A DNA stretch of 36,119 nucleotides. It comes from a virus. Below, piece after piece: positions 4,025-22,460 of the stretch. The notes beneath the pieces were generated by a model, which did no database searches, was not told the DNA's origin, and was given only the letters and a program-made list of their open reading frames with translations. A program made the position numbers and the translations under genes. The stretch lies in IMG/VR virus record IMGVR_UViG_3300025570_000046, positions 1-36,119 of that record; one strand, given 5' to 3'. Positions within the stretch are counted from its first letter, which is position 1. Each line of letters opens with the position of its first letter.

Positions 4025-6334
4025 ATGGGAAAACTTATAAAAGAATGGGTTAAGGGAATCTTAACTGAGGGTATAGAGAAAAAGGTAGTAGTTTACGCTG
4101 GTAGATTTCAACCATTTCACAAAGGTCACAATGCAACTTACGAGCATTTGGTAAAACAATTTGGCAGAGATAATGTTTATATTGGTACATCCAATAAAAC
4201 TGATAACATCAAATCACCATTTAAGTTTAACGAAAAGAAAATGATTATGACAAAAATGTTTGGCATCTCATCAAACAAAATTGTTCAAATCAAAAACCCA
4301 TACGCTCCAACCGAAATCATTGGTAAGTTCAACAAAGAAACTACAGCATTCATAACTGTAGTTGGTGAAAAAGATAGATACAGATTAAAAGGTAAATATT
4401 TTGAACCATACCATCCTGATAGAATTGAAAAAGGATACGAAGATAAGGGATATGTGTATGTAGCACCTGCTCAATCAAATCCAATTAGTGGAACTGATGT
4501 TAGAAATTGGTTATCCAAAGGTTCAGAAGAACAAAGAAAGAGTGGATTCAAAAAAGCATACGGAAAGTTTGACCCAAAAATATTTAAATTGGTTAGTGAT
4601 AAGTTGTTTAAGATTGAATCTAAGATGGAAAGATTCATTAACTCATTTGATATAGAACCACTTTTAGAAGCATCTCAAAATTCATCAATTGGAAAATCAT
4701 TAGTAGATGATGGGCCTGGATTTACATATGGTAACTCAAAAACATACAAAAAAGTTGGTGAAGATGTTGCTCAAATGTTGGGTTGGCAAGTAGTTGATTA
4801 TATCTTAGGTAGTGATGAAGATTCAATTTATGCAGATGATGAAAGAATATTGGGTGATAAATACCCAGTATCATACTTCCCATCAGGTAAACCAGGATTG
4901 GATGGACAAATCAGATATACAGATTTAAAAGGTAATCCTGCATATAAGACATGGGCAAAACATATTACAAAAGTAGCAACAATGGTTGGATATACTTTAG
5001 TAGATTTCTTAGATGCTGAAAAAGCAGCTGATAGTTCTAAAAACGAACCAAAGAAAGTATCAGACCCTAATAATACATCAGATGTAGAAACGGAAAAGTT
5101 TAAAGAACTAAAAGAATCTTTAATAACTGAAGGTGGGGCATATGGACATATGAATCATCCATTTGATATTGAAATGAATTTAACATTTGGTGATTTAAAA
5201 CAAATCATTAGAGGTGCATTAAACGGTAAGTTAGAATTAGCTAGAGAAAAAACAGATGGACAAGCATTAGCAGTTAGTTGGAGAGATGATAAAGGTTTAA
5301 TCGCAGCACGAAACAAAGGACACTTAAAGAACAAAGGTGAAAACGCATTAGATATAAGTGCAATGGCATCTAAATTTGGTGGACGTGGTGGATTAACCGA
5401 TGCATACAATTACGCAATGAGGGATTTAAATGATGCAATAAAATCGCTATCATCAGCTCAACGAGATAAGATATTTAAACAAGGTTCATCATTTATGAAC
5501 TTAGAGGTTATATGGCCTACATCAGTAAACGTAGTTCCTTACGGACAAGCTCTATTAGTATTCCACAACACAGGTGAGTTTAATGATGACGGTATTCAAA
5601 TTGGAGCAAATACCGATGCAGCTAAGATATTAGCCGGGATGATTAAACAAATAAATAAAAACGTTACTGATAAGTACACAATACAAGGCCCACCAGTAAC
5701 ACAACTACCTAAAAATCAAGAACTATCCAAAATGCAATCTAGGTTTAATTCACAACTTAAAAAAGTTCAATCTGAATTTAAATTAAAAGATTCTGATGGT
5801 GTAGCAGATTATCATCAAGCATGGTGGGAACAATGGGTTGATTCAAACTCACCATCTACATTAGATAACAAAACCAAAATGGGATTGGTAAAACGTTGGG
5901 CGTTTGATGATAAATCATTTAGATTAGATAAGAAAAACATTACTGATTCCGATACATTAGAGTGGTCTAAGAAAATCGATAAAAAAGACCATACTAAGTT
6001 AGCAAAAGAAAACACTAGAAAATTCGAAGATATCTTTTTAGGTGTTGGAGCAGAAGTTCTATCATTTATGAGTTCAGTACTTACAGTTAATCCTGATAAG
6101 GCAGTTAGAGATATGAAGAAGAGATTAGACCAAACGATTAAAGATGTTAGTAAATCGGGTAGTCCTGAAAAGATTACTAAACTTAAAATGGAGTTAGAAA
6201 GATTAGCAGCAATAGGTGGTAAGGATAAGATTGTACCAAATGAAGGTTTAGTATTTGTTTACAAAGGAGATACTTACAAACTTACAGGTGCTTTTGCAAG
6301 TTTAAACCAGATATTAGGTTTAATGTACTTTTAA
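4025..6334 (+). CDS. NMN-adenylyltransferase-like / polynucleotide-ligase-like fusion protein
   Basis: 769 residues. Residues 19-165 form an HxGH nucleotidyltransferase: GRFQPFHKGH at 26-35 and ISGTDVR at 154-160, as in NMN or phosphopantetheine adenylyltransferases. The C-terminal half carries covalent nucleotidyltransferase (ligase/capping) motifs: motif I KTDG with candidate nucleotide-accepting Lys409, a motif-III-like LEVIWP around Glu494, motif IV EGLVF at 740 and a motif-V-like Lys752 in YKLTG. The gap between motifs III and IV (about 245 residues) is far longer than in T4 RNA ligases, so an extra domain is inserted. The N-terminus (KGILTE/G, cut predicted after Glu15) resembles a capsid-targeting leader. 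LLE/A at 213-216 and LITE/G at 366-370 lie at domain boundaries. Substrate is unknown: RNA or DNA end repair or NAD chemistry are possible. The two enzymatic folds are fairly certain from motifs; packaging into the head is inference. Confidence 0.75.
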   Translation: MGKLIKEWVKGILTEGIEKKVVVYAGRFQPFHKGHNATYEHLVKQFGRDNVYIGTSNKTDNIKSPFKFNEKKMIMTKMFGISSNKIVQIKNPYAPTEIIGKFNKETTAFITVVGEKDRYRLKGKYFEPYHPDRIEKGYEDKGYVYVAPAQSNPISGTDVRNWLSKGSEEQRKSGFKKAYGKFDPKIFKLVSDKLFKIESKMERFINSFDIEPLLEASQNSSIGKSLVDDGPGFTYGNSKTYKKVGEDVAQMLGWQVVDYILGSDEDSIYADDERILGDKYPVSYFPSGKPGLDGQIRYTDLKGNPAYKTWAKHITKVATMVGYTLVDFLDAEKAADSSKNEPKKVSDPNNTSDVETEKFKELKESLITEGGAYGHMNHPFDIEMNLTFGDLKQIIRGALNGKLELAREKTDGQALAVSWRDDKGLIAARNKGHLKNKGENALDISAMASKFGGRGGLTDAYNYAMRDLNDAIKSLSSAQRDKIFKQGSSFMNLEVIWPTSVNVVPYGQALLVFHNTGEFNDDGIQIGANTDAAKILAGMIKQINKNVTDKYTIQGPPVTQLPKNQELSKMQSRFNSQLKKVQSEFKLKDSDGVADYHQAWWEQWVDSNSPSTLDNKTKMGLVKRWAFDDKSFRLDKKNITDSDTLEWSKKIDKKDHTKLAKENTRKFEDIFLGVGAEVLSFMSSVLTVNPDKAVRDMKKRLDQTIKDVSKSGSPEKITKLKMELERLAAIGGKDKIVPNEGLVFVYKGDTYKLTGAFASLNQILGLMYF

Positions 6335-6978: not shown

Positions 6979-7219
6979 AAATGGATTAACTGAAATGTTT
7001 AAAGATGATAATTCAATAAATGAAAAGGCCGTAATCGGTTTTTTAGCTTTCTTAATGATGGTATTAACATTACTTATTGATTTATATACAGGAATCAAAG
7101 GTGATGAAATGCCAATACATGAATTTGTATTTGATGGATTCTTATACATCACATTAGGAGCATTAGGAATTGCATCTGTAGATAAGATTTGGGGAAACAA
7201 AGGAAAAAAAGAAGAATAA
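6953..7219 (+). CDS. Small two-span membrane protein, possible holin
   Basis: 88 residues. Two hydrophobic segments are visible, about residues 26-46 (IGFLAFLMMVLTLLIDLY) and 62-77 (FDGFLYITLGALGIAS). They are separated by a short acidic loop, with a basic Lys-rich C-terminal tail (GNKGKKEE). Size, topology and charged tail resemble class II holins, which would open the inner membrane for lysis. No endolysin is visible in this window, and many phage membrane proteins share this layout, so the role is only a candidate. It starts inside the previous gene with GGAGAAC as ribosome binding site, and its stop overlaps the next start (TAATG). Confidence 0.65.
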   Translation: MKRLFKKIENGLTEMFKDDNSINEKAVIGFLAFLMMVLTLLIDLYTGIKGDEMPIHEFVFDGFLYITLGALGIASVDKIWGNKGKKEE

Positions 7220-7635
7220 TGGATATTAAAGGTTATTTAAGAGAAAGATTTAATGAGTATTACACTCAAAAAGTAGATGAAGTTCTATGTGTTGAATACG
7301 CATTATCAGACTTGTATGAAACCTTATGTTCAGAAAACCTAATGACCGAAGACCTTCGCAAATGGTTTGGAAAAGGAAAGACTGGTACTACATCAGGTGG
7401 TGGATGGGATAGATACGGAAGTGATGGTCAGAAGTTAGGTAAGTGTGGTGATGGTAAGAAGGGTGGAGCATACGCAGCTTGTTTATCAAAAGAGAAAGCT
7501 GCTAAACTTGGGCCAGCTGGACGTAAAACTTTTGTAGGTCGAAAACGAAGAGCACAAAAGAAAGCTGGTGATTCCAAAAAAGGTGGTAACCGTACTAAGG
7601 GTAAAGCCCCTACAAATAGCAAAACAGGAGCATAA
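7219..7635 (+). CDS. Basic Gly/Lys-rich protein, likely DNA-associated virion protein
   Basis: 138 residues from the ATG at 7219, which overlaps the preceding stop as TAATG. An in-frame TTG at 7189 would extend it but overlaps the previous gene by 31 bases and is not preferred. Residues 1-45 are helical. From about residue 46 (MTEDLRKWF) it becomes strongly basic and Gly-rich, with conserved-looking segments WDRYGSDGQKLGKCGDG, YAACLSKEKAAKLGP and FVGRKRRAQKKA. I associate this short module with many marine phage genomes; its function is unknown. MTE/D just before the basic part is a possible prohead-protease site, which would leave a basic peptide suited to packaged DNA. That is inference. 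An AGGAG near the end serves the next gene. Confidence 0.65.
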   Translation: MDIKGYLRERFNEYYTQKVDEVLCVEYALSDLYETLCSENLMTEDLRKWFGKGKTGTTSGGGWDRYGSDGQKLGKCGDGKKGGAYAACLSKEKAAKLGPAGRKTFVGRKRRAQKKAGDSKKGGNRTKGKAPTNSKTGA

Positions 7636-7932
7636 ATGATAAAATTAAAAGAATTACTAGAAGGTAATAATGATTACTTTAAAACAGCAGGCGAAGCCGT
7701 TGATTTTGCTAAAACCGCAGCTGAGAAAAAAGGATTTACTATTGATGAAGATGATTGGAATAATCAAATCACACATGGTGGTAAGTACAATCGTTTAAGA
7801 CCTGGTGTTGGTAAAACACATTCATTCCAAATTGGATTACTTAAAAACGGCAAACCTCAGAGAAAAGGATTATCTATATCATTGTATGGTATGGATAGTG
7901 GTAAATTTGAATTGACACATTACATAAACTAA
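7636..7932 (+). CDS. Small protein with capsid-targeting-like N-terminus
   Basis: 98 residues. It starts MIKLKELLE/G, nearly the same opening as the proteins at 16405, 19156 and the major capsid protein at 20826. A hydrophobic-x-Glu site ends the leader at Glu9. The body (residues 12-98) is a small mixed alpha/beta domain of no family I recognise. It includes ITHGGKYNRLRPGVGKT and ends in FELTHYIN. The ATG directly abuts the previous stop and has AGGAG six bases upstream (7626-7630). Inferred role: a packaged internal head protein. Confidence 0.65.
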   Translation: MIKLKELLEGNNDYFKTAGEAVDFAKTAAEKKGFTIDEDDWNNQITHGGKYNRLRPGVGKTHSFQIGLLKNGKPQRKGLSISLYGMDSGKFELTHYIN

Positions 7933-7940
7933 GGAATACT

Positions 7941-9569
7941 ATGAATAATAAATGGATATCAAACTACATCAATGAAATATCAGAAGATGAAACCGACCCA
8001 CAAGAAATTAAAGTAGGTAACTATCAAACAAAATATTTCCATGTTTGCCCAGGTGCATCAAAACTATATGGTGATATAGAATCCAAAGGTGTTGATATGG
8101 ATATGGCAGAAAGAAGTGTAAGATTACAAGACGCACTTTTCTTTGTAGAAGAACACATCCAACGAGATGGTTATAATCCAGAAAAAGATTATGTAATGGT
8201 TGCTAATAATATAGCAAAGAACATTATGAAGATGGCATCTATGATGGGGTTAGAAAAAGAACATTCATATATACAAGGTCACGTTGATGTGATTGAAAAA
8301 GTAGTAAACCAAAAAGGGTTAGAAGAAAGAGTAATGGAACTTACAGAAAAGAATGTTCCAACTGATTCATCCAAATGGTCTTACTATAAAGCTCAAGCAA
8401 AGAAGAAATTCGATGTATATCCATCAGCATACGCAAATGGATGGGCTGCTAAAAAATACAAAGCAGCAGGTGGTGGTTGGAAGACTGAAAATAAAGAATC
8501 AGTAAACGAAGCCAAATCAATGGACATGAAAAAACGACTAAAGGTTTACGATAAACTCAAAAAAGGTGATGAGATTACAATTAAGTATGGCTCATCGATG
8601 AGTAGTGGTAATGAAGCCAAATTCAAAGTGACTAAGGGTAAAACTTTAGTAGGTAAGCAGAAGGTAGAGAGAATCATTCTACAAAATGTAGCAAATCCAA
8701 AAGGTGTTAAGTATTATCTATATCAGAGAGATGGAAACGTATCTCTGGCAATTGGCAATATGGGTGCTACTATTGAAGATATGTATGAATCAGTAGTTAC
8801 TGAAGCTCGTTCAAAAAAAGTAACTAAGCAAATGTGGGCAAAGATGGATGATGATAAAAAAATCGATGCACTTCTATCCGTAGTTAAAGACCCAGACGAT
8901 GCTGAGAAATATTTTGATAAAAAGTGGAATGAATTACCATCTGGATTTGAAAGAGATATGGTCATTTACGAATCAGTAAAAGAAGCAACTCCAGAAGAAG
9001 AGGATGAATTCCACAGAAATTTAGATAAGTTAGTTCATAAAACATTCGGACACAGTTCTGATGAAGAAAAAATGAATGAAGCTAATGAACCAGATATAAT
9101 TTCACAATTAAGAGATATCGTTTCAAAAAAACAAAATCAAAAATTAAAAGACCCAAAAAGTGGTAAAACGATGAGAGTTGATTTATACTCAGCATCAGTA
9201 GTTACTCAAGTGTATGATGCACTAAAACAACAATCAAATAAAGATAAATTTGTTGGTATGGGTTTAGTTGGTATGGTTAATACGGCATTCAAACTTATGA
9301 AGAAAGAAAATACTTCTGAAGTAATTGAAGAAGCTGAGTACCAAGGTAGAAAAGTAGAACTTAACAAGCCAATGCAAGGTGATGTTAAGAAATTTAAAGT
9401 TTATGTTAAGAACGATAAAGGTAATGTTGTTAAAGTAAACTTTGGTCAAAAGGGAATGGTAATCAAAAAAGATAATCCTGCAGCCCGTAAATCATTTAGA
9501 GCAAGAATGAATTGTGATAACCCTGGCCCAAAATGGAAAGCAAACTACTGGTCTTGTAAAAAATGGTAA
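7941..9569 (+). CDS. Multi-module protein with repeated V-x-E-A junctions, candidate internal-head polyprotein
   Basis: 542 residues. Compact modules are separated by short Glu-rich junctions that all read hydrophobic-x-(x)-Glu-Ala: ESVNE/A at 190, SVVTE/A at 288, ESVKE/A at 348, KMNE/A at 380 and VIEE/A at 464. Modules: 28-125 (helical, from HVCPGASKLYGD); 139-180 (VYPSAYANGWAAKKYKAAGGGW, a short module common in phages); 195-280 (beta-rich); 291-343; 383-455 (helical); and a C-terminal 512-542 module with RMNCDNPGPKW and YWSCKKW. T4 gp21 cuts after [LI]-x-E, so I read the junctions as likely prohead-protease sites. The N-terminus YINE also fits. The ribosome binding site is AAGGA, five bases before the ATG. 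Individual module functions are unknown to me. The gene is certain; polyprotein processing is a hypothesis. Confidence 0.75.
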   Translation: MNNKWISNYINEISEDETDPQEIKVGNYQTKYFHVCPGASKLYGDIESKGVDMDMAERSVRLQDALFFVEEHIQRDGYNPEKDYVMVANNIAKNIMKMASMMGLEKEHSYIQGHVDVIEKVVNQKGLEERVMELTEKNVPTDSSKWSYYKAQAKKKFDVYPSAYANGWAAKKYKAAGGGWKTENKESVNEAKSMDMKKRLKVYDKLKKGDEITIKYGSSMSSGNEAKFKVTKGKTLVGKQKVERIILQNVANPKGVKYYLYQRDGNVSLAIGNMGATIEDMYESVVTEARSKKVTKQMWAKMDDDKKIDALLSVVKDPDDAEKYFDKKWNELPSGFERDMVIYESVKEATPEEEDEFHRNLDKLVHKTFGHSSDEEKMNEANEPDIISQLRDIVSKKQNQKLKDPKSGKTMRVDLYSASVVTQVYDALKQQSNKDKFVGMGLVGMVNTAFKLMKKENTSEVIEEAEYQGRKVELNKPMQGDVKKFKVYVKNDKGNVVKVNFGQKGMVIKKDNPAARKSFRARMNCDNPGPKWKANYWSCKKW

Positions 9570-15647: not shown

Positions 15648-15778
15648 TTTCTAAAAAGAAAATATTAAAAGAAGAACTTTCAAATAAAGATTTGGAAAAT
15701 ATTCGTCTACTTATTAGATATGAGGTAGCACAGATTATGTTTGATTTATATAGAAAACGAAAAGTTTGGGATAAGTAA
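15644..15778 (+). CDS. 44-residue protein between core gene and prohead protease
   Basis: A short but well-placed gene. Its ATG overlaps the upstream stop as ATGA and its TAA overlaps the protease start as TAATG, so it fills the gap exactly. The peptide begins MISKKKILKEELSNKD, continues through NIRLLIRYEVAQIMFDLYRK and ends KVWDK. It is basic, probably a helical pair. The tight coupling and codon use like its neighbours argue for a real gene. Function unknown; a small head-assembly factor is a guess. Confidence 0.6.
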   Translation: MISKKKILKEELSNKDLENIRLLIRYEVAQIMFDLYRKRKVWDK

Positions 15779-16395
15779 TGAGTAGACTATTAGTAGATAT
15801 TATTCCGTTTAAAATGAGTAAGACTCAAATCAATGAATCATTGGAAGATAACAATGGTAGATTGATTGTTAATGGTGTTTTACAGAGAGCGGAAGCAGAA
15901 AACCAAAATGGTAGAGTTTATCCACGTTCAATCTTAGAAAGAGAAGTGGATAAGTACAAAGGTAGAGAAATCAAAGAAAATAGAGCATTTGGTGAATTAG
16001 ACCATCCAGAATCATCAGTAGTTGAACTAAAAAACACTTCACATATCATCAGAGACGTATATTGGAAGGGTGACGATGTAATGGGTAAAGTAGAAGTACT
16101 TAAAACACCAGCAGGTAATATCCTCAAAGAGCTTTTAGAAGCAGGGTGTACGGTTGGTATCTCTTCAAGAGGTATGGGTTCTGTAAAAGAAGCAAGTAAT
16201 GGTAAATCTGTTACTGTGGAAGATGACTTTGATTTGATATGCTGGGACTTTGTTTCAAATCCATCAACACATGGTGCATTTATGAGACCAATGAACGAAT
16301 CAGTAGTAGGTAAAGGCAAAACACCATCATATAAAAAAATTAATACATTAGTAAGAGATATCATCTGTGAAATAGATGGTGTTTGTTCAATTTAA
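15778..16395 (+). CDS. gp21: Prohead protease, T4 gp21 family (peptidase S80)
   Basis: 205 residues (T4 gp21 has 212). This serine protease with a herpesvirus-assemblin-like fold digests the scaffold and trims capsid proteins before DNA packaging. The expected catalytic elements are visible: His76 in GELDHPESS, the serine in VGISSRGMGS (Ser129 or Ser130), and acidic residues in VEDDFDLICWDFV around 148-158. The substrate-cleft lead-in NQNGRVYPRSIL at 43-53 is also typical. INE/S at 18-21 and MNE/S near 172-175 are candidate self-cleavage sites, matching the autoproteolysis known for the family. This enzyme would cut the many [LIVM]-x-E sites in neighbouring proteins. Confidence 0.93.
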   Translation: MSRLLVDIIPFKMSKTQINESLEDNNGRLIVNGVLQRAEAENQNGRVYPRSILEREVDKYKGREIKENRAFGELDHPESSVVELKNTSHIIRDVYWKGDDVMGKVEVLKTPAGNILKELLEAGCTVGISSRGMGSVKEASNGKSVTVEDDFDLICWDFVSNPSTHGAFMRPMNESVVGKGKTPSYKKINTLVRDIICEIDGVCSI

Positions 16396-16404
16396 GGATA
16401 TCAC

Positions 16405-18645
16405 ATGAAAAAACTAAAAGATTTACTGAATGAAACTATCAACCCACAGTTAGGTAAAGTTTATTCTGACCCATACGCTAAATCATTCGTTAAAGAAAAC
16501 GAAGATGAAGAATCCTCAGAGATGACTACAGAACAAAAACATGCATTCTTAGAAGCAGTTAAAGCATACAAATCATTTGGTGAAACTGTATATAGAAACG
16601 AAGGGTTATCTGAAGTATACGAATCAATCAGAGGGTTGGTAGAAGTTGCTGGTAAAAATATGGTTAAAGAAACTGAAGGTTCATTTGATGGTATTACTGT
16701 TAGTAGACACGTAAAGAGAATGAATGAATCATTCAAAATATTTGAAAAAACTTTAAGAGAAGTTGCAACACTACAACAACGATTAGAATCATCTTATGAT
16801 GAAATCGGTGAAACATTAGGAAAGTATTACGAAATCAATGAAACTGATGATAGTGAAATTGAAGAAGGTAACGAATTTGGTGCAGCAAGAGCAAAAGCAA
16901 TCGCAAATGGTGATAGTGAATTTGAAGTGGATGGGAAAACTTACAAAGTTACTAATGTTGATAAAGAAGATAAAGAGAATGCTGAAAAGTTCGCAAGTGA
17001 ATCATTAAAAGAATTTAACTATCCACAATCAAAGATGAGTAATGTGTTCAATCTTCACTTTGCTCAATTGACTGACAAACTTCCTGGTATGTTTTATATT
17101 GTTGGTAGGGATGTGTATCACAATGATAAGAAAATCGTTTCGTTGACTGGTATGGATTCAGTTAAATCAGCTGTAGCAAAAGTTAAAAAGAAACTTGGTA
17201 TTAAAGAATCAATGAAACTTACTGATATGTTAAAAGAAGGTAAGGATGTTGGACACTACGAAAGAGTTGGAAACCAAACAATCGTAGATAGTAACTTTGT
17301 AAACTATAGTAAAGGTGTATTACCAAATTCAGAACTCGTACATTTAGGTATGGGTGACTTTGCAATTAAATCAAAATCAGGAACTATTAAATTTCAACGT
17401 TCAGGTAAGATGGATGGTATCGGACAAGATTTTGTTGGTAGACCACATCGTATGACTGATGATAAGAATGGTAAATTGGTAGACTTATTTCTTAAATTAA
17501 TGCTTAAAAAGAAAAAAGCAATAATAAGCATGAGTGAATCAACAGTAAACGAAGGTATGGCTGGATGGATTGCAATTGACCATAAAGGTAATAAATTAGA
17601 AATCAAAAAATCTGAAGCTAAAGACCTTTACAACGCAAAACTATTAGCAATCAAAAAACTAAAAGTACCTAAATCAAAAGTTGGTATGTTGGCAATCAAA
17701 CCAGCAGTTGATGAATCAGTAGTTAACGAAGCAAAGTACGATATCGGAATGGCTCGTAAAGGAAACGGATTAACTATTTATAACAAAGCCGAAGAAGAAA
17801 ATGGTGATTACAAAAACGTAGCCCACATTGATAACAAAGGTAAAGTAAAATACTTAGATAAAAAAGTACCATCCAACATCAAAAAAGAAATCGAAGCCGA
17901 AGCTAAGAAAATGATAGAAATCACAAACGAAGGAAACACAATGATAAAATTAAAAGACTTAATGAACGAATCATTTGGATTTGGTGAACTACCATCATCA
18001 AAGTTAATGAAGATGAAAGTATCAGCTAAAGATATGTTAGCATCAGTTGGTAGTAATAATATAAATGAATCTGAAGAAGATGAATCTGCAAACGAAGATG
18101 TTTATGTTAAAAATAAAAAGACCGGAAATACTTACGCAGTAAAAAACGCTGACCCATCTAAGCATGAACCACCATCTGAAAAAGAGATATCAAAAGCAAA
18201 AGCAGATGCAAAAGACGAACCACAACGGGGTTCGGTATCGAAACCAAAATCATTTGATGATGGCGACCCAACCTATTCTGGTCAGACAACAAAAGCGAGA
18301 GATAACGCAGAGAGAGGAACATCAGATGCAGAAGATGAGCCTGTGAGAGATGACAATACAGATATGCAGATTGCAGACATGAAAGATGAACTCAAACGAA
18401 TGAACCCAAAAGACGTATCAGACTATGCAGAATCTGATATATTCCCTTATTTAAAAGGAAAGGATTTAAAGACAGCAGAGACTTTAGTTTCAGATATAGC
18501 AAAGTTGCACCATATTCGCGACATTGAGGAAATAACACCTTTGAAAAAGAAACTGTCCAAATTATTTGATGATAGAATGACTTTAGAATCAGTTAATGAA
18601 ACTAAAAAAAGATTTAAGAAATTGGCTAATATTATAAAAGGATAA
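16405..18645 (+). CDS. Multi-module head protein with internal copies of the leader motif, candidate polyprotein
   Basis: 746 residues. Starts MKKLKDLLNE/T. Related leader-like segments recur inside: MKLTDMLKE/G at 270-279 and MIKLKDLMNE/S at 513-523, as if three genes had fused. Other predicted protease junctions are STVNE/G at 383, SVVNE/A at 442, ITNE/G at 509, INE/S near 555 and ESVNE/T near the end. Modules: helical 40-150; 160-260 with a KTYKV strand; 280-375 beta-rich; 384-435 (GMAGWIAIDHKGNKLEI to KVGMLAIKPAVDE), a compact module; 445-505; and 565-746, a charged helical tail. The ribosome binding site is AAGGA, six bases before the ATG. The gene lies right after the protease, where T4 encodes scaffold gp22. 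The true gp22-like protein is at 19848, so this one is more likely packaged cargo than scaffold. That is inference. Confidence 0.75.
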   Translation: MKKLKDLLNETINPQLGKVYSDPYAKSFVKENEDEESSEMTTEQKHAFLEAVKAYKSFGETVYRNEGLSEVYESIRGLVEVAGKNMVKETEGSFDGITVSRHVKRMNESFKIFEKTLREVATLQQRLESSYDEIGETLGKYYEINETDDSEIEEGNEFGAARAKAIANGDSEFEVDGKTYKVTNVDKEDKENAEKFASESLKEFNYPQSKMSNVFNLHFAQLTDKLPGMFYIVGRDVYHNDKKIVSLTGMDSVKSAVAKVKKKLGIKESMKLTDMLKEGKDVGHYERVGNQTIVDSNFVNYSKGVLPNSELVHLGMGDFAIKSKSGTIKFQRSGKMDGIGQDFVGRPHRMTDDKNGKLVDLFLKLMLKKKKAIISMSESTVNEGMAGWIAIDHKGNKLEIKKSEAKDLYNAKLLAIKKLKVPKSKVGMLAIKPAVDESVVNEAKYDIGMARKGNGLTIYNKAEEENGDYKNVAHIDNKGKVKYLDKKVPSNIKKEIEAEAKKMIEITNEGNTMIKLKDLMNESFGFGELPSSKLMKMKVSAKDMLASVGSNNINESEEDESANEDVYVKNKKTGNTYAVKNADPSKHEPPSEKEISKAKADAKDEPQRGSVSKPKSFDDGDPTYSGQTTKARDNAERGTSDAEDEPVRDDNTDMQIADMKDELKRMNPKDVSDYAESDIFPYLKGKDLKTAETLVSDIAKLHHIRDIEEITPLKKKLSKLFDDRMTLESVNETKKRFKKLANIIKG
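17941..18645 (+). CDS. Possible nested in-frame product from an internal start
   Basis: An in-frame ATG at 17941 is preceded by AAGGA with a six-base gap, the same layout as the start at 16405. It opens with MIKLKDLMNE/S, the leader shared by the other short genes. A 234-residue protein (FGFGELPSSKLMKMKVSAKD early, helical tail late) could be made separately. Either a real second start exists or this is the scar of a gene fusion. The sequence cannot decide. Confidence 0.4.
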   Translation: MIKLKDLMNESFGFGELPSSKLMKMKVSAKDMLASVGSNNINESEEDESANEDVYVKNKKTGNTYAVKNADPSKHEPPSEKEISKAKADAKDEPQRGSVSKPKSFDDGDPTYSGQTTKARDNAERGTSDAEDEPVRDDNTDMQIADMKDELKRMNPKDVSDYAESDIFPYLKGKDLKTAETLVSDIAKLHHIRDIEEITPLKKKLSKLFDDRMTLESVNETKKRFKKLANIIKG

Positions 18646-18650
18646 CCACA

Positions 18651-19154
18651 ATGGATTACTCAGATATATTACAAGACATTTCAGTTGACTTATCTTCTAT
18701 GGTAAAGAAACATCTAAAGAATATTAAAAAATTAGATTCCAAACAACAAAAACAATTTGGAAACCTATTTGGAGATATGAAGCAAGGCATAGATGATTTA
18801 TCAGAAGGAACATACGAATCAGTAGTTACTGAAGCTGTTAAAGAGGTAGTTATTAGTAATAGGATATTAAATTTTTTAGAAGAACGTGGTGTAATAAAGG
18901 CATCAGATTCACAAAAAATTCATAAAGACTTAACAGCATTCTTAAAGAAAAACTTAAATGAATCAGTAAACGAAGCAAAGATTGCATTTGTGAATGATAA
19001 GTTAGTAGGTGATAGAATCCAAAAATCAGGACTCTTACCACTATTAGGTGATAACAACGTATCTTTAAATCCTAACAAAGTGAAATTTACAAGAGAGTTA
19101 AGAGATACATTAGTAAAACTTTATAAAAAATACAGTTCATTAACTGTTAAATAA
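18651..19154 (+). CDS. Three-module head protein with two V-x-E-A junctions
   Basis: 167 residues. Residues 1-55 are a helical module (MDYSDILQDISVDLSSMVKK). ESVVTE/A follows at 57-62, then a helical module 63-102 (ISNRILNFLEERGVIKASD), then ESVNE/A at 104-108. The last is a C-terminal module 109-167 with SGLLPLLGDNNVSLNP and RELRDTLVKLYKKY. The first junction is encoded by the same 21 bases (18816-18836) that occur at 8787-8807 in the 7941 polyprotein. The ribosome binding site is AAGGA, eight bases before the ATG. Candidate substrate of the prohead protease; module functions unknown. Confidence 0.7.
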   Translation: MDYSDILQDISVDLSSMVKKHLKNIKKLDSKQQKQFGNLFGDMKQGIDDLSEGTYESVVTEAVKEVVISNRILNFLEERGVIKASDSQKIHKDLTAFLKKNLNESVNEAKIAFVNDKLVGDRIQKSGLLPLLGDNNVSLNPNKVKFTRELRDTLVKLYKKYSSLTVK

Positions 19155-19155
19155 A

Positions 19156-19353
19156 ATGATAAAACTTAAAGATATACTTAACGAATCTGTAGAGTCAGAT
19201 AAATTATCGAAGGATATTAATAAATCAATTTTAAAGATTGATGATAGTATGTCCTATGTTGATTTTGCTCACGCAGTAGCTAAAGTTTTAAAAGATGAGT
19301 ATGGTAAGCACAACTATATACCATTCATTAACGAATTAAAAAAGAAACTTTAA
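19156..19353 (+). CDS. Small protein with capsid-targeting-like leader
   Basis: 65 residues, starting MIKLKDILNE/S and so sharing the leader of the genes at 7636 and 16405. The remaining 55 residues form a helical domain (DDSMSYVDFAHAVAKVLKDE, ending FINELKKKL). The ATG lies one base after the previous stop. It is the last gene of the head block before a hairpin terminator. Proposed to be packaged and trimmed after Glu10; this is inference from the leader. Confidence 0.65.
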   Translation: MIKLKDILNESVESDKLSKDINKSILKIDDSMSYVDFAHAVAKVLKDEYGKHNYIPFINELKKKL

Positions 19354-19440: not shown

Positions 19441-19698
19441 ATGCAAGAGCAAAACAAAAAACCTTACAAACGAATAAATAGAGACGATATGGAAATACCT
19501 GGTAATCCATTAGCAGTAAAAGTTGTGAATGGTAACATAGAGTTAGCACTCAAAGCTTTCAAAAGAAAAATCAAAGATAGTGGTAAGATGGAAGAAGTCA
19601 GAGACCGAAAAGAATTCCGCAAACCATCTGTGATTAACAGAGAGAAAATGAAAAACGCTAAATACTCTGAATGGATGCGTAGACAGACTGAAATTTAG
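19441..19698 (+). CDS. rpsU: Ribosomal protein bS21 homologue
   Basis: 85 residues. Residues 24-75 match bS21: VKVVNGNIELALKAFKRKIKDSG, then EVRDRKEFRKPSV, then a basic helix to about 75. The family hallmarks ALKxFKRK and the KPS that follows the basic turn are intact. It has about 20 extra N-terminal residues (MQEQNKKPYKRINRDDMEIP). bS21 binds the 30S platform near the anti-Shine-Dalgarno end of 16S rRNA, and in Bacteroidetes it is implicated in masking that end. Marine phages encoding bS21 have been reported. The phage copy may replace or compete with the host protein to alter initiation on late messages; that is inference. It has no Shine-Dalgarno sequence of its own and sits alone between a terminator and the scaffold promoter. 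Confidence 0.85.
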   Translation: MQEQNKKPYKRINRDDMEIPGNPLAVKVVNGNIELALKAFKRKIKDSGKMEEVRDRKEFRKPSVINREKMKNAKYSEWMRRQTEI

Positions 19699-20825: not shown

Positions 20826-22460
20826 ATGGATTTAAAAAACATCCTTAATGAAGGTTCTTCTCATACCGCTAGATTGTCTGAAGCTACAAGAGCTTTGGCA
20901 GGGAAATGGGAAAAAACTGGTCTTTTAGAAGGAATTGACAACGAAGTTGAAAAAGCTGGTGTTGCAACACTTTTAGAAAACCAAGCACGACAATTAGTAA
21001 AAGAAGCTTCTGCTACTGGTACTTCTGCAAATTCAGAAGAGTGGGCTGGTGTAGCTCTACCATTAGTAAGACGTATCTTTTCTGAAATCGTAGCAAAAGA
21101 TTTCGTATCTGTACAACCAATGAACTTACCATCGGGTCTAGTATTTTATCTAGATTTCAAATATGGAACAGGTCAAACTGGATTTGCAACAGGTAGTGGT
21201 AAAGATTCACAAACTGATTCTGTATTCGGTGTAACTGATACTACTTCAGACCCATCAGGTGGTTTGTACGGTGCAGGTAGATTTGGATACTCAATCAACG
21301 ATGCAACATCTGCAACTCAAACATTGGGTACTGCTGGAGCAAACAAATTCGTAACTTCATCTGTATCACTTGCAGACGTAAATTATGATACTCAGTTTAC
21401 TTCATCTAATGGTGCTGATATCGTTAGTGGACTTATTTACAAAATCGCTGTACCAACAGCATCTATCTCTGGATATGATGATAAAGGAATCAGAGGATTT
21501 AGAGTAGAAGGTGCTGAAATTACAGACCAATATCCACAGTTTACTGTAGCAAATGGCGGAGATATCGTATTTGTTGCAAAAGGTGCTTTAGATGCTAGTA
21601 CACTTGTAGTTAAGTATCACAAACAACCAACTGATACATCAAGAGGTGATTTCGAAGCAACTGGAACTTCATTAACTGCTAATCCTGAAGTTGATATCGA
21701 TATTCCAGAATTGAATGTTGAAATGAAGAGTTTACCAATTGTTGCTAAGACACGTAAGTTGAAAGCACAATGGACTCCGGAATTCGCACAAGATTTGAAC
21801 GCTTATCATTCAATCGATGCTGAAGCTGAATTAACTTCTATGTTGTCAGAATATATCTCACAAGAGATTGATTTTGAAATCTTAGATATGTTGATTCAAG
21901 ATGCTAAGAGTACTGGTTACTGGTCTACACAAGTAGGTAGAGAATGGAATGGAAACGCATTTGCTGACTATTCTACAACTGGAGCAGCTGCTTCTGCATT
22001 TACACAAGGTGCATGGTTTCAAACACTTGGTACTGTAGTTGCTGGTGTATCTAACAAGATTCACCAAAAAACATTAAGAGGTGGAGCTAACTTTATGGTA
22101 GTATCTCCTGATGTTGCAACAATTATTGAATCTATCCCAGGATATGCTTCAACAGCAGATAACGGTGATGCTCAATTTGCATTCGGTGTAACTAAAATTG
22201 GTTCATTGAACAGTAGATTCCAAGTATATAAGAATCCTTATATGAAAGAGAACGTAATCCTAATGGGATATAGAGGAACACAATTCCTTGAAACTGGTGC
22301 TGTTTACAGTCCATACATTCCATTGATTATGACTCCATTGGTATATGACCCTAAAAACTTCACTCCTCGTAAGGGCGTTATGACACGTTACGCGAAGAAA
22401 ATGTTGAGAGGGGAATTCTACGGTAAGGTTTATGTAGATGGATTACACAAAATTCAGTAA
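20826..22460 (+). CDS. gp23: Major capsid protein, T4 gp23 family
   Basis: 544 residues (T4 gp23 has 521). It forms the hexamers of the head. The N-terminal propeptide starts MDLKNILNE/G and contains several hydrophobic-x-Glu sites. By analogy with T4 cleavage after Glu65, I predict maturation at LVKE/A after Glu60, just before SATGTSANSEEWAGVALPLVRR. The conserved core VRRIFSEIVAKDFVSVQPMN spans 81-100, and GLVFYLDFKYGTG follows. The C-terminal RKGVMTRYAKKMLRGEFYG is also gp23-like. The strong AGGAG upstream fits the most abundant virion protein. The unit ends with a perfect terminator at 22496. Confidence 0.95.
   Translation: MDLKNILNEGSSHTARLSEATRALAGKWEKTGLLEGIDNEVEKAGVATLLENQARQLVKEASATGTSANSEEWAGVALPLVRRIFSEIVAKDFVSVQPMNLPSGLVFYLDFKYGTGQTGFATGSGKDSQTDSVFGVTDTTSDPSGGLYGAGRFGYSINDATSATQTLGTAGANKFVTSSVSLADVNYDTQFTSSNGADIVSGLIYKIAVPTASISGYDDKGIRGFRVEGAEITDQYPQFTVANGGDIVFVAKGALDASTLVVKYHKQPTDTSRGDFEATGTSLTANPEVDIDIPELNVEMKSLPIVAKTRKLKAQWTPEFAQDLNAYHSIDAEAELTSMLSEYISQEIDFEILDMLIQDAKSTGYWSTQVGREWNGNAFADYSTTGAAASAFTQGAWFQTLGTVVAGVSNKIHQKTLRGGANFMVVSPDVATIIESIPGYASTADNGDAQFAFGVTKIGSLNSRFQVYKNPYMKENVILMGYRGTQFLETGAVYSPYIPLIMTPLVYDPKNFTPRKGVMTRYAKKMLRGEFYGKVYVDGLHKIQ

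Follow-up and report, generated by a model that had tools for sequence, protein, structure and literature searches.

A likely head-cargo polyprotein with exchangeable modules bounded by prohead-protease-type sites in a T4-superfamily virus

In the 36,119-nucleotide stretch of DNA from a marine T4-like virus analysed here (the window; IMG/VR record IMGVR_UViG_3300025570_000046), one 542-residue protein, P0001, is in our judgement likely a head-targeted cargo polyprotein that is cut by a gp21-type prohead protease and whose modules recombine at the junctions between them (Table 1). The cleavage itself, residence in the virion, injection and the functions of the modules are what we infer from sequence. 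A first-pass annotation of the same DNA had proposed a polyprotein cut into five or six small internal proteins. Both the open reading frame and the five junctions lie where it had placed them, and a cut polyprotein is supported by the shuffling of modules among relatives, the residue pattern in front of module F, the starts of free-standing F genes and the motif seen in gp21 and the capsid protein, although more pieces than that are likely. Specifically, about 12 N-terminal residues would form a capsid-targeting tag and direct the P0001 chain to the prohead core, where a gp21-type protease would cut after Glu in [hydrophobic]-x-E↓[AGS] during maturation (the arrow marks the predicted cut), at residues 190, 288, 348, 380 and 464, with probable additional cuts near 12-15 and after 136. 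This would release a set of small domains of about 30-120 aa, most of them basic. Those retained would be packaged alongside the DNA and, as T4 IPI-III are, probably delivered to the host, injection with the DNA being plausible by analogy, while related phages alter their cargo by recombining whole modules at short junction sequences.

Table 1. Features of the window and predicted modules of P0001
Feature	Coordinates	Strand	Residues, predicted sites and remarks
Single-gene cargo (putative)	7636..7932	+	tag MIKLKELLE↓G plus one module
Putative cargo polyprotein P0001	7941..9569	+	542 aa; from the ORF plus the alignment of relatives
Capsid-targeting tag (probable)	7941..7976	+	residues 1-12 (MNNKWISNYINE↓, possibly to ISE15)
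Module A1	7977..8348	+	residues 13-136; acidic, replaceable; ends LTE136↓K
Module A2	8349..8510	+	residues 137-190; basic; YPSAYAN motif; phrog_27331; ends ESVNE190↓A
Module B	8511..8804	+	residues 191-288; basic; predicted mostly beta fold; ends SVVTE288↓A
Module C	8805..8984	+	residues 289-348; 60 aa; ends ESVKE348↓A
Module D	8985..9080	+	residues 349-380; 32 aa; acidic; ends EKMNE380↓A
Module E	9081..9332	+	residues 381-464; basic; predicted alpha/beta fold; ends EVIEE464↓A
Module F	9333..9566	+	residues 465-542; pI 10.2; phrog_7595
Terminase	starts 10700		T4-superfamily head region
Portal	starts 12355		T4-superfamily head region
gp21-type prohead protease (Peptidase_S77)	15778..16395	+	predicted C-terminal self-cleavage MNE174↓S
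Second polyprotein-like ORF	16405..18645	+	746 aa
Small ORF	18651..19154	+	ESVVTE61↓A, ESVNE108↓A
Small ORF	19156..19353	+	tag MIKLKDILNE10↓S
Major capsid protein gp23	20826..22460	+	predicted maturation site LVKE60↓A
Sheath-like protein	starts 33003		assigned from size and context

Profile matches to Pfam and PHROGs identify the window as a T4-superfamily head and tail region. The gp21 homologue that had been placed nearby, at 15778, bears out under the profile search, matching Peptidase_S77 at E=1.7e-34 with catalytic His and Ser regions that align with T4 gp21. The predicted gp21 and capsid-protein sites share their motif type with the P0001 junctions: the capsid-protein site, placed by alignment with T4 gp23 LTE65↓A, is invariant in seven relatives, and gp21 of close relatives carries [MV]NE↓S directly after the catalytic domain. 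Further, neighboring ORFs begin with N-terminal tags (MIKLKDILNE↓S, MKKLKDLLNE↓T, MIKLKELLE↓G and MDLKNILNE↓G) that agree with T4 IPII/IPIII MKTYQEFIAE↓A both in length and in where the site falls, those of the ORFs starting at 7636, 16405 and 19156 having a clear small P1' residue. The putative tag of P0001 itself, read as MNNKWISNYINE↓I or as running on to ISE↓D, stays together as one unit, with relatives retaining MN(N/LN)xWxxxYINEIS at the N-terminus while residues ~19-125 are exchanged, but its P1' residue is not small. These tag-like N-termini, the agreement of the junction motif with the sites predicted in gp21 and the capsid protein, and the S77 association seen among isolates (below) make it most improbable that P0001 is a non-virion multidomain protein that acts in the infected cell and bears a gp21-like motif by descent or coincidence, even though the loci of Pelagibacter phage HTVC008M and Methylophilales phage Melnitz sit among replication and metabolic genes.

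Several other genes of the window are worth recording. A ribosomal protein bS21-like gene (phrog_21469) lies within the head gene block at 19441-19698. At 7189-7635, a very basic small ORF (GKCGDGKKGGAYAACLSKEKAAK...) had no family match and resembles, by eye, the N-terminal module of the polyprotein in contig L143. Upstream, 4025-6334 encodes a 769-aa cytidylyltransferase-like protein whose N-terminus resembles a tag (ILTE15↓G) and in which two candidate sites, LLE215↓A and LITE369↓G, lie close to apparent domain borders; its site count (4 versus 3.0 expected) is not unusual by itself. Tagged enzymes like this product were also seen in L053, L082 and L103.

All five junctions of P0001 fit the tighter motif [VILM]-x-E↓A, so the optional second variable residue in the motif as originally read is unneeded, and five of the six EA dipeptides in the protein sit in this context. 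Against 20,000 composition shuffles, [VILM]xEA occurs 5 times versus 0.59 expected (P=0.0002) and Ex[VIM]xEA 4 times versus 0.037 expected (0/20,000 shuffles). The looser motif first proposed (5 versus 1.40 expected, P=0.011) is weak, and was set aside as evidence by itself. The list of five junctions, each of them confirmed, is nevertheless incomplete: LTE136↓K is also conserved, and both an N-terminal tag and one more cut, behind E136, are likely. Every module starts with a GCN codon and none with ATG, GTG or TTG, so separate products would need proteolysis, and separate translation of the modules was rejected.

A scan of viral contigs recovered about 35 loci with multi-module relatives of P0001, in which motif-bounded segments show insertion, deletion, duplication and reordering or have been transferred to a neighboring gene. 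For example, residues 289-375 are missing in L014, L012 has module B, preceded by a tag, in its upstream ORF, module B likewise follows a tag in L013, three modules are inserted after residue 190 in L018, and module E is reordered and repeated in L019. Module C is missing as a unit from many relatives, and module D recurs in L012, L013 and L032, with a similar stretch recognized by eye in L103. With junction residues masked and the expectation taken from rotated junction positions, 79% of 150 internal alignment ends in P0001 fell no more than 8 aa from one of the five junctions versus 15.5% expected (P=0.01; 0.0034 on unique bins). Across 26 proteins, 56% of alignment ends lay within 5 aa of junctions versus 10%, and many of the leftover ends fall at more sites of the same type, such as LTE136↓K and DINE↓A. 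When 37 polyprotein-like ORFs were split at their junctions, 30 recurring module types emerged, several of them in many neighbor contexts (13 for module E), and some of these types were common to the P0001 family and the family of the second polyprotein-like ORF.

The breakpoints also raise the question of whether the junctions are flexible linkers and recombination points only, within one uncut multidomain protein. Besides coinciding with the breakpoints, junction DNA is over-uniform: in L001-L035 it varies less than would be expected from synonymous codon usage, GAATCAGTAAACGAA being present in 20 of 31 ESVNEA cases, so part of the junction repetition reflects recombination, and these sequence patterns suggest that the junctions serve as recombination homology. 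An uncut protein is nonetheless improbable in the light of module F, which gives the best sequence evidence for cleavage sites. Among 75 non-redundant fusions of F to unrelated sequence, from many divergent phages, P3 was I, L, V or M in 67 (I25, L24, V14, M4), P1 was E in 68 and D in 4, and P1' was A, S or G in 73 (A62, S8, G3), whereas P2, P4 and P5 varied. The 15-base sequences at these fusions comprised 73 distinct versions; that so many conserve only P3, P1 and P1' is the pattern of a protease site, and it is the gp21 rule (L/I-x-E↓; PMC9026906). Further, where F is a free-standing gene, in six isolates, its second residue is exactly the P1' residue (MAKYQGR..., MATYKGK...). The same motif also stands at the end of the N-terminal tags and after the catalytic domain of gp21, which likewise speaks against linkers alone.

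The other modules agree. In 12 of 12 independent upstream contexts, module A2 is preceded by E at P1, with L, F or M at P3; a conforming site precedes B in 13 of 16 and E in 16 of 19 contexts, most of the exceptions being alignment offsets in distant relatives. Five relatives (L062, L063, L065, L066 and L076) carry Asp at P1 before module F (LIIED↓A). Asp at that position in the T4 IPIII tag inhibits processing (PMC9026906), so the site may stay uncut in these relatives, or they may have a different protease. An S77 match was present in all four isolates with fused F and absent from all six with free-standing F, counts that are not independent trials because the isolates are partly related. 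Ten metagenomic contigs of 43-123 kb with fused F also had no S77; gp23 was absent from them as well, the T4 portal was absent in nine, and a search of the fused-F contigs without S77 for S78, XkdF and phrog_3014 proteases found none. They may be fragments without the head region, or may come from other phages.

Structure prediction bears on the same borders. The model of whole P0001 has a mean pLDDT of 52.6, with 54% of residues below 50; that all five junctions lie at pLDDT <50 in it is therefore weak evidence for their falling in linkers. Module B reaches pLDDT 77-88 over most of residues 201-280 and falls at both junctions in this model, and a separate E-F model, built on a deeper alignment, predicts two confident domains (pLDDT 77-93 over its residues 1-70, in module E), the linker immediately ahead of the 464 junction being of low confidence. 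The suggestion that the modules are compact therefore holds by prediction for B, E and F, and lacks predicted-fold support for C and D. Four modules, A2, B, E and F, have a basic pI (9.2-10.2), and A1, C and D are acidic. Fold searches with the whole model and the E-F model gave no PDB match at E<=0.001; the former returned only E>=0.02 matches, from a low-confidence model, and the latter only phage proteins that are uncharacterised or have uninformative names. P0001 passed the curated cut-off of no family, and no recognised protease, effector or peptidase domain was found in it. The Pfam matches to PLAT, Big_8 and DUF5872 were rejected as below their cut-offs, and DUF5754, with weak matches to only 15 of 47 F modules, was not used either.

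The main rival is that P0001 is a core protein degraded in maturation like T4 gp22, gp67 and gp68, gp21 cutting it at many sites chiefly to empty the core, with most pieces leaving the head. The head-gene neighborhood fits this, a tag would serve such a protein equally, and cutting at several sites is also found in T4 core proteins (PMC9026906). We still regard this as unlikely, given that the modules are conserved domains, with E and F confidently folded by prediction, that F is an independent gene in phages without gp21, which points to pieces functional on their own, and that the module set varies between close relatives, unlike a core scaffold.

Other genes of the window bear on the cargo polyprotein reading as well. 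T4 makes its internal proteins as separate genes, which had been set against the polyprotein as a different packaging strategy; the two are no strict alternative, as the module of ORF 7636-7932, a single gene here, forms the final module of a polyprotein in L012 and L013, so both forms interconvert. The ORF at 16405-18645 contains 17 [VILM]xE↓[AGSTN] sites versus 5.0 expected, begins with the tag MKKLKDLLNE↓T, has an internal copy of such a tag (MIKLKDLMNE↓S) at residues 513-522 and trades modules with the P0001 family, as seen in the relative L189. Separately, a small module, CWxGYxxxGxKxKNGKxVPNCVP, recurs in tagged proteins of divergent phages (L143, L104, L103 and L174, the last a 289-kb contig).

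Relative to known systems, P0001 is best read as a variant of the T4 internal-protein system, and apparently a new one. T4 internal proteins are a diverse set with only a removable tag in common (PMC3012670); gp21 cuts after L/I-x-E, and IPIII residues 8 and 10 set processing (PMC9026906). As in T4 IPI, IPII, IPIII and Alt, there is a probable N-terminal tag of ~10 residues ending [hydrophobic]xE↓A (T4 IPII and IPIII MKTYQEFIAE↓A; here, for example, MIKLKDILNE↓S of the ORF at 19156), the cargo is small and variable, and an S77 protease is present in the same genome. The T4 proteins carry one cargo domain per gene, whereas here several domains stand behind one tag with repeated internal sites. 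Pfam, PHROGs and the PDB fold search showed no relation of P0001 to IPI-III or Alt; since the internal proteins themselves are not conserved and there is no family match, P0001 would work like an internal protein and not be a member of their family. T4 gp22, gp67 and gp68 also hold several gp21 sites in one chain (PMC9026906), but these are scaffold and mostly degraded, while the sites here bound conserved, exchangeable domains. Head and ejection proteins of giant phages (phiKZ, 201phi2-1, SPN3US) are likewise cut after Glu by a gp21-related protease, with 29 sites in 19 proteins of 201phi2-1 (PMC9026906) and several sites in the propeptides of SPN3US gp53 and gp54 (PMC10052503); the SPN3US sites trim propeptides off one mature protein, and a recombining cargo chain is not described there. 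Polyvalent proteins (Iyer et al. 2017, PMC5512222), which occur in phages and in conjugative elements, are also multidomain, some being delivered with DNA and some processed, but the processing was proposed to be the work of built-in metallopeptidase domains (PMC5512222), whereas the breaks in P0001 match gp21 sites. Set beside viral polyproteins, P0001 shows putative protease sites and exchangeable modules, E and F being predicted as confident separate folds and B being confident in the whole-protein model. The T4 and giant-phage literature describes tags, propeptides and degraded core proteins, and we found in it no recombining cargo polyproteins; nor did we find cargo polyproteins cut by the head protease described in phages, in a search that covered subscription literature thinly, so that an earlier description is possible.

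Cargo polyproteins would explain how many small proteins enter the prohead with one tag and in a fixed ratio, and how the cargo set changes so fast. The [ILVM]xE↓[AGS] motif after a tag could also predict head cargo in marine phages, for example HTVC008M and Melnitz, most of which is now annotated as "hypothetical protein", and could reveal new counter-defence domains. We give roughly even chances to the wider proposal that a broad group of T4-superfamily phages, jumbo-sized ones included, carries a recombining library of small host-takeover or counter-defence domains as polyproteins, in which protease sites double as recombination joints. If true, new cargo would be loaded, released and delivered merely by arising between two joints behind one tag.
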